A stretch of 64,000 nt of DNA from Vitellaria paradoxa (lineage: Eukaryota; Streptophyta; Magnoliopsida; Ericales; Sapotaceae), in contig CM034237.1 of assembly GCA_019916065.1 (NCBI GenBank), positions 58,228,590-58,292,589 of the forward strand, given 5' to 3'. Made by a program: the position numbers and the translations under genes. Below are positions 5,779 to 33,265 of this stretch, one piece after another. Numbering within the stretch: position 1 is the stretch's first letter; each line of letters begins with the position of its first letter. The notes beneath the pieces were generated by a model. The model was not told the DNA's origin. It saw only the letters and a list, made by a program, of their open reading frames with translations, and searched no databases.

Positions 5779-5896
5779 CCCTTCGCGTAGGTTGCGAAAC
5801 CCTTCGCGTAGGTTTCGAAACCCTTCGCGTAGGTTTTGAGACCCTTCGCGTAGGTTGCGAAACCCTTCGCGTAGGTTGCGAAACCTTTCGCGAAGG
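5779..5896 (+). repeat. 21-bp minisatellite in the LTR
   Basis: Five copies and one partial copy of CCCTTCGCGTAGGTTGCGAAA. The last three copies are also in the 5' LTR at 12-66. On the minus strand it reads as a 7-residue repeat (LREGFRN), which I regard as chance. Confidence 0.9.
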
Positions 5897-6548
5897 AATT
5901 TACCTTTCACAAATCTATTTTTTTTCCTATTTCGAAAACATTCGAATACGAAAACCCTTAACCAAATCCGTGTGAGATCACTGGTATGGATTTTCGTAAC
6001 CAATCATCAAATACTTTCGAATAGTCTTAAAAATTAGATTTTTATTAATTTTTGGAGTTTAATTGAAAAACCCTAGGAAACAAAGGTCTTTAACCATATC
6101 CGCTTGAGATCACTGGTACTGACCTTTGATTATAACATTTTTAAAACTTTTCAAATTAAACCCTGTTCTTCAAACAAACACACCCTAAGGCAAATTAGTG
6201 AGCTACCCGGGCTTGAAAGTTGGATCAAGAACCTTTTTAGTATTATGCTTGTGATTTAATTTAATTTATGAGTTGATTTATTCACTTTAGAATTTAGAGT
6301 AGATGCTTTGTTTGCATTTTTAAATTAAATTGAATTTCTTTCATTTAGAATCTAAAACAAAAGTTTGAGTTGCTAAAAAAAATTAGTTTAAATTAATTTA
6401 GGTTCACCTACTAATTAAGAGAACAAGTCTAGAGCTTTTAACAAAGCCCTCCCTGTGGATTCGACCTCGGACTCACCGAGTTTTAAAACTACGACTGCCC
6501 TCTTGCACTTGAGAGGTAGAACCCGAAACACTTTTTAAGGGTCGGTCA

Positions 6549-15776: not shown

Positions 15777-18089
15777 TGTCTCTTCGAACTTCTTTTTCAA
15801 CTAGTAGTGGTGGTTTTGAAGCACTATTATCCTTATCAATTTCTTTGTTGTTGGCTTTGGTACACTATTAATGTCTTTCCCAATTCTTCTGCTAGTGGTG
15901 GTTTTGGTGCACTATTGTCTTTTCGAGCATCTCCTGCTACCACTAGTGGTGGTTCTAGAGTACTATTGTCTTCACTAACTTCTTTTGTAGGTGGTGCTAG
16001 TGTTGGTGCACTACTATCTTTCCTAACTTCTTCTACTGGTGGTGGTTCTGGTGCACTATTTTCTTTCCTAACTTCTTATATTGTCATTTGTTTTTGTGCA
16101 CATTTGTCTCTCTCTAGATGAACTTTTGGGCTGGTCCCAAGGACACTTGGGTGCTTTCAACCATGGGAAGCATGGAAGCTTGCTTTTGACTCATAATTTG
16201 ATGTCCGATGAGCTTTGTCGATTGCTGCTGATTCTAGTGCTTTATTTTCTTTTCCAACAATTTTTATAGCTGATGATTTTGGGGCTAAATCCTTCCCCAT
16301 GCTATTGTTAGCATGCAAAGCATTTCTAATTTATTTAAATCACATAGTTCTGTGAGATAAGGAGATTTTTCAAGACTGATGTCAATCAACAAGAGTACAT
16401 TGTGCGCTATGAGCAGAGTACTGGACTCTCCAACCACAAACCCACTAAGGACTTGAAGGTTGATAAGCGATGATGATACCTCAGGCATGTGATCCAGGAG
16501 GTAACACTTGGACATGTCCAAGTGCGTCAAATTCATGAGGGAGCAAATTCCAGGAGGAATTTCCTCAAGGTTTTGACAAGCCCTAATGTCAAGAATCGTG
16601 AGATTCTCGAGTTTCAAGATGGTGCTAGGAAGACTTCTCATTCTAGACATTCTTTGAAGGCTCAAAAACCTAAGATGCTTGACATGTCCAAACCCTTCTA
16701 AGTCATTCAAGTATCTTACCTTCATAAACCAGGAAGGTACAACATCAACGATATATGTGCTCGGAGTTTGCCACCTTCCCAAATAAAGGACTTTGACATA
16801 TTTCATTCTTCGAAACCATTCAGGATTGAATTCAAGAACAGACTCACTAACATTGAACAATGTATAAAGTGATTCCGAATCCTGAGTGTTAAAATCAAGC
16901 CACTTACCTGTTAAGCATGCTTGGTGGGAAGAACTGTAGTCGGATGTAAACATTCATGTCATCGTCAAAGTCGAAGAAGCTCACCCTTTTAGCAAGCACG
17001 ATCACCATAGAATGAACAAATGGGTTCATTCTGCAAGTTTTCACCTCAGTGAAGCTAGCTAAGCCAGGGCTACTTAGCTTGCTTGAAGGCTCGATGAAGT
17101 CCTTGGCAATTAGCTCGTAAAAAAATCATTTGCATAGTCCTCTGTGGTCTTACTACTATTGTAGGACCCCAGAGGGGGCACAAAGCCCTCCCCGATCCAC
17201 TAGTATGTCATGACCCTCTTCTTGATTTTAGCGTTTCCAGGGAACATTAAGAAGTAAAGCAAACATTGCTTCAATTCGATTCCGAGCTCGTCATAACGAC
17301 CCTTAGAATCTTTGAACACAGAGCTTTCCGCAAAGGCAAAGCTCTTGGATAAGTTGGGCATCTTCTCCAGCGCGGCATGGCCTTATTTGATGCTTGCAGT
17401 GGTGGCAACTTGTGACCCAAACTGATTATAGTGAGTAAACTTTGGTTCCTCCTCCTCTTCCTCTACCTCCTTAGACTCAGCCTTCTGCTTGGAAGTGATC
17501 CATTGCTTTTCTTTTGCGACTTTCCTCTTCAAATTCCTGAACTTAACAATAGTTCCTCCATATTTATTGAGGTCAGCAACCTCTTTTCCTTAGATTTTTT
17601 GGTGTCCATGTACATTTTTGTCTTGTCCGAAACGTTTGTAATGAAGTCCTGGCCGGCGTCAATCATTTTCTCGAGTGCCTTTGCCTCGCTCTCCTTGGCG
17701 CTCATCCCTTCCTTCAAATTGGTGACCTTCTTGTGCAGATCGCACAAGTCGTTAGCGAGGCCTGCCACGTGGTGATCATCAGCAGTCGTGTTCATTGCCG
17801 TGTTCAGTAATTGGTTGAACGTTCGCTTCAGCTCCGATATTTCGTCCTCATAGTCTTTGATTTTCTCCGAAGCCTTAGAAATGGATTCCATAGCATCATT
17901 GATGAATCTAGTAAGCTTATCCACCTCGTCGCTGTCACTGTCACTGTCGCTGTCGAGGGGTTGAAACAGCTGAATAGAAAATCCTCATTTCCTGTGGTGG
18001 AAGTCCGATGGGGATCTTTTTGGTCTGAAGTTTCTTGGTCAGTTCTACAGGCAGAAGAAGGAGAAGGTATCACATGAAGTTGAACCCAT

Positions 18090-24495: not shown

Positions 24496-25927
24496 ATGAA
24501 AGTCAGTCTAATGTGGGTTAAGCTATCCACTGACCAATTCAAACGACTGTTTGAAACCTGGGACATTCGGGCGGTGATTCTCCTGAGTCTCCTCATGCAA
24601 GTCATCCTAATCTTCTCCGCACCATCCAGGAAGAGGACTTCCAGTTTGAAAGTACTGATCCCAATGTGGTTAGCCTACTTGCTGGCCGACGCCACCGCTA
24701 ACTTCGCCGTCGGACACATGTTGAGCAGCGGCCCCGGTCCTCCTCTGGAAATCATGGCGTTTTGGGCCCCCTTCCTCCTCGTCCACCTGGGCGGCCCCGA
24801 CACCATCACGGCCTTCGCCCTGGAGGACAACGAGCTCTGGCTCCGCCACCTCCTCCAGCTCGGTTTCCAATTCACAACCGCCGGTTACGTCTTCGTCCAC
24901 ACTCTCCCTCAAAACAAGCTGTGGTTACCAATAACCCTCATGTTCATTGCCGGCTTAATCAAGTATACTGAGCGCACTATTTCTCTTTTCCTGGCTAGCT
25001 CCAAAACGCTCCGAGATTCCATGATCGCAGCTAGCGATCCAGGGCCAAGCTACTGGAAGCTGGTGGACTATTTCATTTTGAAGCGGCAGGCGAATCTTCC
25101 GACCCGGGTAGAGACAATTCCGATTCCTAGAAGACCTCACGAGCAAGGAGTGAGCTCCCTGGAGGACTGGGAGGTGGTACTGTATGCTCATCATTTCTCC
25201 AAATCATTCAAAGGGATCCTTTCCGACCTCATACTAAGCTTCCTGGTCCGAGACGAGAGCAGGAATTTCTTCTTCAACAGAACGGCGAGAGACGCTTTCA
25301 AGGTGGTGGAGGTAGTGTTGGAATTAATTAATATTTAATTCTCATAATTAGTTTCTTAATTAAAGTGATCCATATAAAAATTTAAATTTGATAAAGAATT
25401 ATCTAGAAAGTTATTATTGGCAAAAGATTGTGAGTTGATTTCCTAATCATATTCTATTTTGATGGACGGTCGAAATTAAATGACTAATTAGGAAATTGGG
25501 TCCTCTCTCTCCTTATAAATAATAAATGAATTCCATCAATTCATACACATTAAAATTACAACACATTAAGGTTTATAGGGCAAGAGGGAGAAACCTTAGT
25601 TTTCAAAAGGGTTTTATTTTGTTGAAAGAGAAAATTCAAGAACAATAATTTTGAGGTAACTTTCGCATTCAGATTTTCAAAGTAATGATTTAAGGTACGT
25701 GTTCTTAATTATAATATGTAAGTAGGAAAAATATGTGAATATCATGAAGGTAAAGATCTTGTATATTTAATTAAATATTATGTATTAATTTAATTATAAA
25801 CTTATATATGGTATTAGAGCACAAGTTTGTAATCTCATGATATTCCATTATGATATTGCCGCTAATTGAATTTCGTTACATATTTAATTATATATGTATT
25901 TGAGAAAATTAAGAGAAGCTTATTCTC

Positions 25928-25967
<40 letters not shown>

Positions 25968-28900
25968 CATGGATTTTGATTTTCTATCCTCATTAAAATT
26001 CTTGAAAAGTTACTCAAGATAAGATATTGAATCTGTATTCACATTCTTGTATTATTGCGTTCAATAAAATAGTTTGAATGCAAATAGCATGATTAATGAT
26101 TTAAATCCCAATGCTTGTATTAAGTTATGTTTTTTTTTTTTTTAATTTTAAGTTGATTTTTCCAATTAGAATTCTTGGATAATCAACTGAAAGTATATAT
26201 TTATATTATGAAGATAGTGACTCAATTGCTAACAAGAAATTAGGGAATTTAATTAATCTTTTAAGGATGATAGGCGACTTATTTTTTAACATTACTGAGT
26301 TATAAAAAAATATATATATATATATATATATATATTAAATGTTTAACAATTCCTTATTTGGACATGTTGAACCCTTAAGTTTTTGAAAAGTTTTGGCTGG
26401 GTTGCCTATTAAAAATATATATATATATTTTTTATTGATCAATGGCATGCCTTCTAAATTCTAAAAAAAAAAATGCACTTAAGTTTTGTTATTATTATTT
26501 TTATTTTGTTTTCCTGTATTTGTATTTTTGGAAAACTTAAGAAAAAAATAATATTCTTTTAATGTTTAATGATTAAATTAAGTAAATTAATTATTTTAGC
26601 CATTATTATTGATTCTAATATTCACATTATAAATGGTCTGGTGTTCACCACAGTGCTCCAATCCATTATTGTGAATATTAAATTTATGATTATATTTAAT
26701 TCTAATATTCATATTATGATTAGATTAAATATTCTCACTATTTTTTAATCTATTATTATAAATATTAGATTACTAAAATTTTGTTCATGCCACTTATGTT
26801 TTGGTTGCCCATAGGCCCAAATATGGTAGTGAATATTAGATTGTTAATATATATATATATATATATATTAATATTCATATTATAAATGGTTTGGTGTTCA
26901 CCACAGTGTTCCAATCCATTATTGTGAATATTAATTTATGATTATACTCAATTCTAATATTTGTATTATGATTTGATTAAATATTTACTTCAATATTTTT
27001 TAATCTATTATTATGAATGTTAGATTATTAAAATTTTATTCATACCTCTATATTTTGATTGCCCACAGGCTCAGATATGGTAGTGAATATAGAATTGTTG
27101 ATATTTTAATTATTATTTATTCAATTATATAATTGGTTACTCACAGGTCCAATTATATTGATTGAATAATTGTTATGGGGTGATAAATTATTTTATCACG
27201 AAAATATAGGACATCCACAAATGCTATATTTTTTAATAATGTATCACCTAATTAAAAGTATCTTAAATATCAACAATTTATTATTCCCTTACATGAGTGT
27301 TATTTATGTGTTGTTATAAATAAAATTAACATGTGAGCATATAAAATTGCAGTTACAAATCCTATTGCACTTCATTCCTAAGCCTTAAATATCCCCAGAT
27401 TTGATGGTACTAATTTCTCTGAGTGGCATTATCAAGTCCAGTTTAGTTTGAGGGTTCTAGGCCTTGATATGTGCCTTCTTGTTGATGAACCTACTACTAT
27501 TACTAATGAAAGTAGTAAGATTCGGAAAGCCACTCATATGGCATGGTCTAGATCCAATGAATTAAGCCTAATGTCTTGTGCATGACCATTACTGCAAACA
27601 TTAAATCATATCTCCTTGAGACGTAGAATGCTAAGGAAGATTTTAATAATTTTAAGGAACATTTTCAGTTTTCTCACTTGTTGGAAAATTTATGGCTGAA
27701 CTAAACATTATGCGTTTTCATGGTACTCATACCATTAATGAACACATTATTGAAATGACCAATCTGACTACAAAATTAAAGACTTTAGGCATGATTGTGG
27801 ACGAGTCTTTTCTCATCCGTTTTGTCCTAAAATCTTTACTTCTAGAATATGGACCTTTTTAGTTCAATTACTACACTATTAAGAATAAATGGAATGTTAA
27901 TGAACTACATAGTATGTTGGTCTAATAAGAAGGAAAACTTATGTAGTAGAATGGTCATGTGACGCATCTAATGGTAAAAGAATGAGCTACAAAGAATAAA
28001 GCTGGAAAAGGCATCAAGCGTGGCCCATCCAAGTTAAATGGATCTGATCAATCTGCCCCTCCCCCCCCCCAAAAAAAAGAAAATAAAGCGATAAGTGCCA
28101 CTTTTGAAAAAGAAGTGAACACTTTTAGAAAGATTGCCTAAAATGTAAGACATGGTTCGAAAATAAGGGTAAACTTATACCTTTAGTATGTTTCGAATCA
28201 TTGATATTCCTTCTAATACTTAGTGGATTGATTATTATTCAAGTACTTATGTTTTAAACTCGATGCAAAGATTTTTTTTTTTTTTTTGGTTTATTTAAGA
28301 TCTCTTGCTTTATTGCATTTAGAATTTTGGTAAATGGATTATACCAAATTAACCTTGAACTTTTTCTCTAAATGATCTCCTTTCTTACTCTGCATTATAA
28401 TGTTAGAATTAAACGTGAGTCATTTGATGAGCATTCATATTACTTATGACATAAAAGATTAGGTTACATATCTAAGAAAAGAATTGAGAGATTAATAAAG
28501 GAAGAAATTCTCTCAAATTTGGATGGGGTTGATTTTGATGTGTGTCTAAACTGTATTAAAGGTAAACAGAACAAACATAAAAAGAAATGAGCTATAAAAA
28601 GTATCCAGCTCCTAGAAATAATATATACAGATATATGTAGACCTTTTGTTAAACTCCTTGAACGTTTAGTTGTTTGTGCACAATACACAACGCCAAATGA
28701 ACCTTGGCATAATAGTGTAGCTGAAAGGCACAATCGTATCCTTATGGATATAGTTAGGAGTATGATGAGTAATATAAGATTACCTATATCCTTATGGATG
28801 CATGCTCTTAAAATTACTGTGTATGTCTTAAATAGGGTTCCTAGTAAGGCAGTTCCAAAGACACCTTTTGAACTGTGAAAAGGATGGAAACCCAGTTTAA

Positions 28901-31900
28901 GGCATTTATATGTTTAGCGTTGCCCAGCAGAAGTAAGAATTGATAATCCACATGAATAGAAAAACTAGATCCAAGAACAATTAATTGTTTCTTTATTGGA
29001 TATCTAAAAAAATCAAAAGGATATAAATTTTACTGTCCTAACTATAATATAAAAATTGTTAAAATCAGAAATGCCAGATTCATTAAGAATGGCAAAATTA
29101 ATGGGAGTGGTAAAGTTAGAGATGCAATCATTCAAGAAATCAGGGTACAATTTCCCTTACCTCTGATTCATAATAGTCTTATTGTTCCTAATGATGTTGA
29201 TATAATCAACAATAATGAACAACAAATGAATGATCAGCAATCTGATGATTCCCATAATGAGATTGTAAGCACTGACCCTATTATAGATGCGCCACAAGAA
29301 GTAGCATTAAGAAGATCTCTTAGAAATAGGAGACCTACTATTTCGACTGACTATGTGGTGCATTTATAAGAATCTGAGTATAATGTTGGGGATACTGATG
29401 ATTCAGTTACATATTTGAAAGCCATTAATAGTAATGATTCTACTAAATGGATTGATGCCATGAATGATGAAATAAAATCTATGGACTCTAATAAGGTCTG
29501 GGAGTTAGTCGAATTGCCCGAAGGACATAAAAAGGTCAGGTGTAAATGGGTTTTTAAAACTAAACGCGATTTTAAGGGCAATGTCGAACGACATAAAGCC
29601 AGACTTATAGCCAAAGGTTTTAATCAATGTGAGGGCATTGATTATAATGAGACCTTCTTTCCTGTATCAAAGAAGAACTCTTTGAGAATCATTTTAGCAC
29701 TGGTAGCTCATTTTGATCTAGAGTTGCACCAGATGGATGTAACGACGGCTTTCTTAAATGGGAGTTTAGAAGAAGAAGTCTATGTGACACAACTAGAGGG
29801 TTTCATAAAAGAAGGAAAGGAAAACATGGTCTGTTTGTTAAATAAGTCAATATATGGACTTACATAGGCTTCCTGACAATGGTATCTTAAGTTTTATGAC
29901 ACTATTATTTTATTTGGGTTTAAGGAAAACACTGTTGATCAGTGTATATACTTGAAGACCAGTGGGAGCAAAATTTTATTTTTAGTACTGTATATTGATG
30001 ACCTACTTATAGCCAGTAGTTACCTTGGTTTACTACGGGAAACTAAAGATTTTCTTTTGAAAAACTTTGGAATGAAGGATATGGGAGGGGCATTCTTTGT
30101 AATAGGAATAGAAGTATTTCAAGATGGATCACGTGAATTGTTAGGATTGTCTCATAAAGCTTATATTAGTAAAGTTTTTGAAGGAACAATATGCATAAGT
30201 ATGACTCCACTGTTGTTCTAATTTCAAAGGAGGATAAGTTTAGCTTAAGTTAATATTTCAAAATGAATTGGAACATAACAGTATAAAAGATATTTCTTAT
30301 ACTTCTATTCATATGAGTTTAATGTATATATAGATTTGCATCAGGCCAGATATTTTGAGATGTTATATAGATACCAAAGAAAACTGGGATTTGATCATTA
30401 AAAAAAAAAAAAAAACTGCAAATAAATTTTTAAGATATTTGTAAGGGATAAATACTTACATGCTCACATTTAGGAGGGCCAATCACCTTGAGGTGATTGG
30501 ATATTCAGACTCATATTTTGGAGGACGTATTGATAGCAGGAAGAGCACTTTTCATTATGCGAGAAATGCTGTTTCATGGAAGAGTGGTAAGAGTTATTGC
30601 ATCACCCACCATGGAGGTTGACTTTGTTGCCTGTTTTGAGGCTGCAAATAATGGATTATAGCTGTAAAATTTTATTTTAGGGTTTAGAGTTATGGATACT
30701 ATTTCTAAGTCCTGAAGATTTACTGTGATAATATTGCAGCAATTTTCTTTTTAAAGAATGATAGGTATACTAAAATGGCCAAGCACATTAAGTTAAAATA
30801 TCTATCTATTAAAGAAGTTCAGAAATAACAAATGTCAATTGAACACATTAGTACGAGTGTTAATATAGCAGATCCACTTATGAAAGAGCTATCTCCAAAG
30901 ACATTTATGTAGCATGCTAACAAGATGGGTCTTGAGAGTAGCAAATATTAATTTATTTGTGGATTGCTTAGTGCTTGTTTACTTGACATTATATTTTGAT
31001 ATCTATTAAAGATTTTCTGAACTTATAATTTTCTGTCTTGCAATATTTGTTTACATGCATGTGAATTGTTTAATGTAATAGAAATAGTCTTGAAAAAGAC
31101 ATCATTGGACCATTAACGATAACTCACCTTATAGACCTTGTCAAATAAATTGTTGATGACGTAGTACATGGAAGGAACCATACTCTTGAATTAGTATGGA
31201 ACCGCCATGACTCTCATTAATGATTTATTTAATTAAGGTAAACCATTAAGATGACTCTTCTAATGTTATTGCGCGCCTAATGTTTCTTATATCAAATTAT
31301 GATTATAGGATTATTATATGGACCAAGTAGGAGACTGTTGGAATTAATTAATATTTAATTTCTAGAATTAGTTTCCTAATTAAAGTGGTCCATATAAAAA
31401 TCTAAATTTGATAAGGAATTATTTAGAAAGTTATTATTGACAAAAGATTGTGAGTTAATTTCTTAACCATATCCTACTTTGATGGACGGTAGAGATTACA
31501 TGACTAATTAGGAAATTGGGTTCTCTCTCTCCCTATAATGAATTCCATCAATTTATACACATTAAAATTACAATACATTAGGGTTTATAGGGTAAGAGGG
31601 AAAAACCTTAGTTTTCAAAAGGGTTTTATTTTGTTGAAAAAGAAGATTCAAGAACAATAATTTTGAGATAGTTTCCGCATTCAGATTTTTAAAACAATAG
31701 TTTAAGGTACGTGTTCTTAATTATATTATATAAATAGGTAAAATATGTTAATATCATGAAAATAAAAATCTTATATATTTAATTAAATATTATGTGTTAA
31801 TTCAATTATAAACTTACAGGTGGAACTTAACTTCTACTATGAGGCTCTCTATACCAAGGCCTGGGTTGTTCAAAGTGACGTCGGGTTCTGCATTCGATTG

Positions 31901-33265
31901 GTTTCCTTCATCCTGACCTTGGGCGCCCTCGTGATTTTCATTTTCTCGGGGCAGAAGAGTTTCGAGAGGTACGACGTCGGAATCACCTACATCTTGCTGT
32001 GCGGTGCCATTGCGCTCGATATAATCGCCTTTATCATGATCCTTTTCTCGGATTGGATTGTGGTCACCATCACTAAGCAGTCTAAGCTTGAAGTTCCAAC
32101 AAAGTGTAATCAAGTGCTGAGGAAAGTGCTCAATATAGAGAGGGAAAGGTGGCCGAAGCAAGAAATTAGTAAGGGGAAGAAGCATCATTGGCCGTTATCG
32201 TGGTGCCGGCGGTTTAGGCAATTTCTACGTCGCCGGTGGTGCGAAACCATCTCTCAGTACAACTTGATCAATTACTGTCTCCGCCCACGAAGGGAACGCA
32301 AGGAGAAATTGTATTCGTATCTGGGCATCAAAGCCCTCCTTGACTCGTGGACGTACGTGAAAGAGGTGAAATTCAACAATGACTTGAGAGACTTAATCTT
32401 CTCGGAGCTGAAAATGAAGGCGAAGTTGGCAGATGATTTGGAAACTGCCAGGGATTTGTATTCAGGAAGAGGCGATTGGGTGCTTGGGCTGGAGGATTGT
32501 CCGGAGTTACTCCCATGGGTGAGTGAGGTAGAATTTGAAGAGAGCCTTCTCTTGTGGCACGTTGCTACTGAAATCTGCCTAAATTGCAATCCCACTGAAA
32601 TCTGCCGAAATTGTAAGGGCGAGGATATGGACATTGTTCTCGCTGAAATCTGCCGATATAGTAAGGGTGAGGATGGGGAAGTTGATCTCTGCCGCAATCG
32701 CAAGAAAGAGAACAAGTACCGGGGCATGTCTAAACACCTCTCGGATTACATGCTGTATCTTCTGATTCATAAGTCCGCGATTATGTCCTCAGTAGCAGGA
32801 ATTGGGCAAATGAAATTCAAGGATACCTGCGCCCATGTCGAGATTTTCTTCCAGCAAGAAGGAATCTGGGCTGAAGTTGAAAAATGGTTTCGGTGTGATA
32901 AAAGAGGAGAGGAAGAAATTTTGCAAAGAGCCTGCATGAGAATCTTTGGAGTTAGGACAGATTTTGAACCAATTACCTTAAAGGAAGAGAGCAGCAAATC
33001 TGTGTTATTTGATGCTTGCAAGCTGGCGAAGAAGCTGGAGGAAGTTGGGAGAAAAAAAGACAAATGGGAGATAATAAGCAGAGTGTGGGTTGAAATGCTG
33101 TCCCACGCTGCGTGTAGATGCAGAGCCAACACCCATGCAGCTGAACTGGGTAAGGGAGGCCAGCTCATCACTTTGGTCTGGATGTTGATGGCTCATTTAG
33201 GCATTGGAACGCAGTTTCAGATGAGTGATTTCCGCCCGAGGACAACACTCGCCGTCGAGAAGTAA
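24496..33265 (+). CDS. DUF4220/DUF594 membrane protein gene; two exons separated by a retrotransposon-containing segment
   Basis: Exon 1 (24496-25311, 272 codons) encodes the front of a DUF4220 protein: a hydrophobic helix around residues 26-42, then LIPMWLAYLLADATANFAVG, the family signature FWAPFLLVHLGGPDTITAFA with LEDNELWLRH, and IKYTERT. Exon 2 (31820-33265, 481 codons) continues with LYTKAWVVQSD, two more hydrophobic helices, a central LLWHVATEIC region, and a C-terminal DUF594 segment (HAAELGKGGQLITLVWMLMA). The sum is 753 residues, a normal length for the family. The split lies inside KVVE/VELN, where relatives are continuous. GT at 25312 and AG at 31818-31819 would join the exons in phase 0. 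Neither half has a stop or frameshift. The family is plant-specific, probably plasma-membrane and of unknown function. If the segment is not spliced, the gene is a truncated pseudogene. Confidence 0.8.
25316..25806 (+). repeat. 5' LTR of the copia element
   Basis: Direct repeat of 31336-31818. The final dinucleotide is TA instead of CA. CCTTATAAATA near 25521 is a TATA box candidate. Confidence 0.9.
26615..27105 (+). repeat. Tandem duplication (~247 bp) in the copia leader
   Basis: Two diverged copies (about 26615-26860 and 26862-27105) share GGTGTTCACCACAGTG, CCAATCCATTATTGTGAATA and GATTGCCCA(C/T)AGGC-like segments. TA microsatellites lie next to them (26310-26335, 26846-26868). Confidence 0.8.
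27380..30960 (+). pseudogene. Decayed Ty1/copia gag-pol
   Basis: In order: a UBN2-type Gag start (about 27390; FDGTNFSEWHYQVQFSLRVL), an integrase zinc-finger region (about 28400-28620, with CLNCIKGKQNKHK), the later part of the integrase core (about 28660-28880; EPWHNSVAERHNR), and reverse transcriptase (29415-29867; CKWVFKTKRD, LIAKGFNQCEGIDY, QMDVTTAFLNGSLEEEVYV). Then comes the RT active-site YIDDLL (about 29990) and an RNase H end (to ~30950; ADPLMKELSPK). Between the zinc finger and the rest of the core, part of the integrase catalytic domain is deleted. Many stops and frameshifts separate the pieces. The domain order integrase before RT is diagnostic of copia. Confidence 0.88.
31336..31818 (+). 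repeat. 3' LTR of the copia element
   Basis: Starts TGTTGG and ends TTACA. Its last CA together with the first G of the target duplication forms the CAG of the inferred splice acceptor. Confidence 0.92.
32560..32730 (+). repeat. EICxxC-type internal repeats in DUF4220 exon 2
   Basis: Four related units (TEICLNC, TEICRNCKGED, AEICRYSKGED, VDLCRNRKKEN) lie between LLWHVA and KHLSDYML, where relatives normally have a short variable loop. They keep the reading frame, so this is an in-frame expansion giving a Cys-rich, charged loop of about 50 residues. Confidence 0.6.

Follow-up and report, generated by a model that had tools for sequence, protein, structure and literature searches.

A decayed Ty1/copia retrotransposon as a possible exact intron of a lesion-free DUF4220/DUF594 gene

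Results

The Interrupted Gene and the Inserted Element

The window analyzed here is a 64,000-nucleotide stretch (G000:C5:58228590-58292589) of a 667-Mb genome. It contains a DUF4220/DUF594 gene that is host to a 6.5-kb Ty1/copia element inserted in the same sense at positions 25316-31818. The first half of the gene, exon 1 (24496-25311, plus strand), extends for 272 codons from the ATG to a GAG at 25309-25311, encodes the N-terminal part of DUF4220, and is collinear with single-exon paralogues. The second half, exon 2 (31820-33265, plus strand), comprises 481 codons plus TAA and encodes the remaining part of DUF4220, followed by DUF594. The Pfam profile of DUF4220 is split between the gene halves into positions 1-211 and 212-341, and both DUF4220 and DUF594 score above the curated cut-off. 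In a protein search with this gene, the best matches listed belong to Actinidia, Camellia, and Vaccinium, with a highest identity of 52% (Actinidia rufa) among the 120 of 1982 matches listed. Going by these matches, the DNA seems to come from an asterid.

The element is flanked by two copies of the target site, GGTAG on the left (25311-25315, plus strand) and GGTGG on the right (31819-31823, plus strand), which differ at one of five positions. The left copy contains the donor GT (25312-25313), and the first G of the right copy completes the acceptor CAG/GTG (here and below, the slash marks the exon boundary), the AG of which occupies positions 31818-31819; GT and AG thus lie at an equal offset in the two copies. 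Joining position 25311 to 31820 produces a 2262-nt frame, whose sole stop is the terminal one. The initial annotation had placed the element, the target copies, and the gene halves at the boundaries given above, had described both halves (272 and 481 codons) as free of stops and frameshifts, and had noted that splicing at this common offset would restore the frame exactly in phase 0; all of this was confirmed, the joined frame being open up to the terminal TAA. The trinucleotide GGT occurs at 36 of 2258 positions of the coding sequence (1.6%), and about one exonic insertion in 60 is expected to be placed in this way by chance. By itself such a placement is unremarkable; more notable is that it coincides with an intact gene.

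The element itself (6503 bases, plus strand) has two long terminal repeats (LTRs) of the form TG...CA, a 5-bp target duplication, and a copia-type RVT_2 domain, on which its assignment to Ty1/copia rests. The 5' LTR (25316-25809, plus strand; right edge defined by the LTR alignment) begins with TGTTGG, now has TA at its inner end, and carries two cryptic donors, GAG/GTAACT (25656) and AAG/GTACGT (25695). The 3' LTR (31336-31818, plus strand) has kept its CA end in the terminal TTACA (..AAACTTACA), which gives the A of the acceptor AG, and has lost 8 bp of a TATAAATA box that is retained in the 5' LTR and in the 28 parsed relatives (of 29). The two LTRs differ at 48 of 483 positions (9.9%, or 0.109 by K2P; 42 transitions and 6 transversions) and by one internal 8-bp indel, in agreement with the divergence of roughly a tenth estimated at first. 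The earlier description of a wrecked gag-pol is also accurate for the polymerase, in which an SH3-like fragment (PF25597; 28956-29366, plus strand) is followed by a broken reverse transcriptase (RVT_2, PF07727; 29370-30218, plus strand) lying in two frames, 29370-29864 and 29877-30218.

Elsewhere in the window, identical 300-nt direct repeats at 1-300 and 5831-6130, 5.8 kb apart, are perhaps the LTRs of a young element, and the frame 902-2677 between them has a weak match to Retrotrans_gag, below the cut-off. Two further direct-repeat pairs, 13821-14120/15399-15698 (96% alike) and 57630-57790/63840-64000 (97% alike), are perhaps the LTR pairs of other elements. A leucine-rich-repeat fragment (LRR_14) on the minus strand at 16288-16953 perhaps stems from a resistance-type gene. 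An Rfam search of the window found nothing.

Empty Sites in the Paralogues and the Ancestral Target

A profile search of the genome with DUF4220 revealed 29 matches. Four intact single-exon paralogues (L002, L003, L004, and L005), located at 58.17-58.72 Mb of the same chromosome, all run through the insertion site, and the element is absent in five of five paralogues checked, that is, in these four and in L010 (G000:C5:58580202-58584041), the sister copy of the interrupted gene. The site reads GAG/GTA in L003, L004, L005, and L010, and GAG/GTG in the distant L002. Because four of five paralogues carry GTA, the left copy, which holds the donor, looks ancestral; most simply, the target would have been GGTAG, kept on the left, and the right copy would have silently changed from GTA to GTG. 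The mismatch between the copies had originally been read the other way, as a change of GTGGTG into GTAGTG toward the donor consensus. This post-insertion improvement of the donor was dropped, GTA being already present in four of five paralogues.

Six of the 29 family matches contain internal stops, and some genes fall into at least two matches; the DUF4220 family in this genome seems to be duplicating and decaying.

Predicted Splicing and Its Hazards

The arrangement of the locus is best explained as follows. A Ty1/copia element inserted into the GGTAG of a formerly uninterrupted DUF4220/DUF594 gene, the duplication leaving a GT behind the left GAG, and the CA of the LTR end together with the first G of the right copy making CAG. 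With these two signals in place, the element plus one target copy would therefore constitute a phase 0 GT-AG intron, the removal of which would return the old message save for one later silent change. At least some of the transcripts, we infer, have 25311 spliced to 31820 in the pre-mRNA, which may be the reason why both halves stayed lesion-free while L010 decayed. For this, the polyadenylation site of the LTR would have to be transcribed without ending the RNA.

The G+C content falls from 52% in the last 60 nt of exon 1 to 22% in the first 60 nt of the predicted intron, and rises from 12% in its last 60 nt to 45% in the first 60 nt of exon 2. The acceptor is TTATAAACTTACAG followed by GT, and AACTTACA is terminal in 28 of the 30 fetched family LTRs. 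The donor, GAG/GTAGTG, matches the consensus at five of nine positions, compared with seven for each of the LTR donors at 25656 and 25695, and by this count 89 of 337 GT sites (the donor included) match as well as it does. By U1 pairing energy with bulges allowed, it is among the best five of the same number of GT sites. The strength of the donor thus differs by measure, being high by U1 energy and modest by consensus count. Splicing from 25656 or 25695 would include a stop at 25336-25338.

The main danger to splicing is polyadenylation in the LTR, since gene and element have the same sense. In the excerpted reports, a copia insertion in an exon of Brassica Crr1a causes the transcript to terminate within the first LTR (PMC3559844), and a RAV2 transcript ends by LTR polyadenylation (PMC12112155). 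The relevant passages of the latter study also describe a full-length ONSEN copia element that is removed as an intron from an Arabidopsis exon (the paper gives both AT5G32415 and AT4G34215 as its name), as well as seven other insertions whose transcripts had a start or an end within the element (PMC12112155). The Arabidopsis proteins IBM2 and EDM2 are reported, in the part of the work consulted, to suppress premature polyadenylation where an element lies inside a gene (PMC10241880).

Such suppression, together with the competing donors at 25656 and 25695, is consistent with a mixed outcome, in which exact splicing would occur in some transcripts and LTR ends or LTR donors would be used in others, so that the element would act as a regulatory intron. 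This special case of the splicing explanation is, on the signals described, quite possible, if short of probable.

The Sister Paralogue and Selection on the Interrupted Gene

The element-free sister copy L010 provides a control for the interrupted gene. Over approximately 620 codons it has four in-register stops and nine indels, three of which shift the frame (1, 46, and 1 nt); the gene has no stop or frameshift. The two sequences have 21 derived codons in common, compared with 6 and 3 for two alternatives, and their sister grouping has bootstrap support of 100. The AU test rejected each of the eight trees tried with L010 placed elsewhere (p <= 0.014); the SH test failed to reject one of these eight (0.055). 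Three trees with L010 beside the gene were not rejected. At fourfold sites, L010 is closer to L004 and L005 (0.128 and 0.129, respectively) than to the gene (0.157), as would be expected if the silent branch of the gene were longer.

Silent changes are more numerous in the interrupted gene than in the sister pseudogene, even though the two branches are of equal age. On the stem common to both, omega is at the fitting bound, hinting at fast change after duplication.

Private codon changes were counted only at codons where the references agree. The ratio of nonsynonymous to synonymous changes is 23:17 without stops in the gene and 33:7 plus three stops in L010 (p 0.027); in the intact L005 it is 29:22. 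From conserved to variable sites, private nonsynonymous changes affect 3/108, 13/103, and 7/61 codons in the gene and 12/118, 12/95, and 9/62 in L010, the difference at conserved codons having p 0.032. When L005 was dropped from the reference, the ratios became 36:22 for the gene and 42:13 for L010 (p 0.11). Codons with an amino-acid change number 23 of 272 in the gene versus 36 of 275 in L010, counting stops (p 0.098). The gene shows fewer amino-acid changes and a larger number of silent changes, and it is on the latter that the contrast in omega leans.

With six sequences, the codon models estimated omega at 0.52 for the gene, compared with 1.36 for L010. A common value for the two was rejected (2dlnL 8.0), as were values of 1 (10.8), 0.35 (4.35), and 0.8 (4.9) for the gene, and seven further fits yielded 0.48-0.57. 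In models with five sequences omega of the gene is 0.88 and 0.90, not different from 1; these models lump the stem shared with L010. Total nucleotide branches are 0.072 for the gene and 0.075 for L010. The initial proposal that the gene was kept under selection is thus supported by the absence of lesions, against seven in L010, and by the six-sequence estimate, and is opposed by the five-sequence estimates and by an overall amount of change that matches the pseudogene's. In the suggested comparison of the two halves, for which we used paralogues with the sister copy included, omega is 0.49 for exon 1 (2dlnL against 1: 4.2) and 0.53 for exon 2 (6.7); the low value for the whole gene comes in part from the additional silent changes.

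The insertion took place along the branch that leads to the gene alone. The gene and L010 differ at 31 of 197 fourfold sites, i.e., 0.088 per lineage, and from the approximately 0.05 per LTR the post-insertion share of the branch is by arithmetic 0.57. In the recent pair L003/L004, the upstream flanks have 178 mismatches in 5536 aligned bases (3.2%) and the fourfold sites, which are few, 5 in 312 (1.6%); if the rate in non-coding DNA is double that at fourfold sites, as this pair with its five fourfold changes only suggests, the share becomes approximately 0.28. Constraint before the insertion and neutrality thereafter could fit the same counts.

The principal competing account is a knock-out, according to which the gene is a pseudogene, lesion-free by luck, and any transcripts end in the 5' LTR. 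The same-sense LTR, with its donors stronger by consensus, and the several decaying members of the DUF4220 family suit this account, as do the total change equal to that of L010 and the five-sequence omega near 1. At the L010 rate of 7 lesions in 1860 nt, approximately 2.4-4.8 lesions are expected in the gene since insertion, and the chance of zero, by arithmetic from this rate, is approximately 0.09-0.008. The enumerated chance of no lesion is 0.0000016-0.004 at u=0.05 and 0.001-0.06 at u=0.025; it rises to 0.036-0.25 at u=0.0125, and the ranges for the two lower values of u leave room for a knock-out. The account is opposed by the complete absence from the gene of L010's seven lesions, by omega below 1 in both halves when the sister copy is included, and by private changes that spare conserved codons, and we regard it as unlikely, if not negligibly so. 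The case for retention of the gene after insertion, as we read these sequences, is moderate and rests more on the missing lesions than on the rates.

Substitutions in the exons comprise 88 transitions and 64 transversions, close to the 87:78 of L005, and differ from the 42:6 of the LTRs (exons versus LTRs p 0.0001). CpG-type changes are raised in the gene (16/152 versus 6/165 in L005, p 0.025), a hint of methylation.

Age of the Insertion

At 1.3e-8 or 7e-9 substitutions per site per year, the K2P distance between the LTRs corresponds to an insertion age of about 4 or 8 million years, respectively. The nearest other copy of the 5' LTR is 93% identical (40 of 445 candidates scored) and that of the 3' LTR 91% identical (40 of 446 candidates scored). 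The distances of the two LTRs to the 29 fetched relatives are at least 0.066 and 0.071, and the relatives' mutual median is 0.033. Both LTRs group together with weak support (0.57), and their private changes are similar in amount. Judged by these distances, the insertion is old.

An exact pattern, covering copies with unaltered LTR starts, found two copies of this copia family with a GGT target genome-wide, the window element being one of them. The second copy (G000:C6:22408275-22408774) has the target GGTGG; the open frame adjoining it is reverse-transcriptase-like, judging from its motif.

An LTR difference far above the 3.3% median among the 29 fetched relatives might also arise if a recent insertion had brought in LTRs that were already different, in which case the intact gene would be uninformative; given that the best copies among those scored reach 93% and 91%, leaving neither LTR with a close relative, and that private changes are similar in the two LTRs (their sister support being weak), such a young insertion is very improbable. 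A fission of the gene, with the 3' LTR driving exon 2 as a shorter gene and exon 1 giving a truncated protein, would make use of both open frames, but is scarcely credible in view of the lost TATAAATA box in the 3' LTR, the position of the first in-frame ATG of exon 2 at codon 73, behind an earlier out-of-frame ATG and three ATGs at the LTR end, and the similar omega of both halves.

Discussion

The above analysis favors the explanation that the element is spliced out as an exact intron of the gene, toward which we lean with some reserve, in part because gene and pseudogene are equal in total change. As far as can be judged from DNA, the locus is probably an instance of an event type already known, in which the element is unusual and has been kept for a long time. 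Of the features expected of a transposon-derived intron, both the GT and AG at the same offset and the absence from relatives (five of five paralogues) are found here.

Intron gain in land plants is poorly documented. If the splicing explanation is true, a recognizable complete LTR retrotransposon serves as an exact intron in a lesion-free gene, and intron birth has been caught in the act. Read on either strand, an LTR element has CA at its end; therefore, any GGT target would do. We advance tentatively, as a suggestion that falls somewhat short of a conviction, that an LTR element landing on an exon-sense GGT would be born a precise intron in either orientation, that this locus would be a long-retained natural example, and that ordinary LTR retrotransposons may be a standing source of introns in land plants. 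The resulting rule, a CA end plus a GGT target, would be simple and testable across plant genomes. Comparable cases, maize Ds among them, are reportedly known. In a limited survey of the open-licence literature, we found no report of an LTR element that had persisted through evolutionary time as an exact intron within an exon.

The birth of introns from transposons via target duplication is an established idea, formulated in the AGGT protosplice model (PMC3443670). As that model is set out in the excerpted text, and as at this locus, the duplication provides each flank with an equivalent splice site and leaves the coding sequence unchanged. The locus departs from the strict AGGT form in that the duplicated target is GGTAG, the donor coming from the host target and the acceptor being composed of the LTR's last base, A, and a G of the target.

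The closest likeness in structure is to the Arabidopsis ONSEN insertion, also a full-length copia element in an exon, the removal of which was seen in cDNA (PMC12112155). That insertion is fresh, and its splice sites are not described in the relevant passages of the report, whereas the element studied here is old and decayed, would restore the frame exactly, and is known from DNA. The heterochromatic elements regulated by IBM2 and EDM2, as presented in the part of the work cited, would resemble it in being large silenced elements that have to be transcribed through, but at this locus the whole intron would be formed by the element (PMC10241880).

Finally, some introners bring a 3' site with them and take the 5' one from their target, so that, as at this locus, one splice site is provided by the element and the other by the target duplication; the survey, in its excerpted sections, found none in land plants (PMC9860276). 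Introners are families that make many introns, whereas the locus described here represents a single insertion of an ordinary LTR family (PMC9860276).
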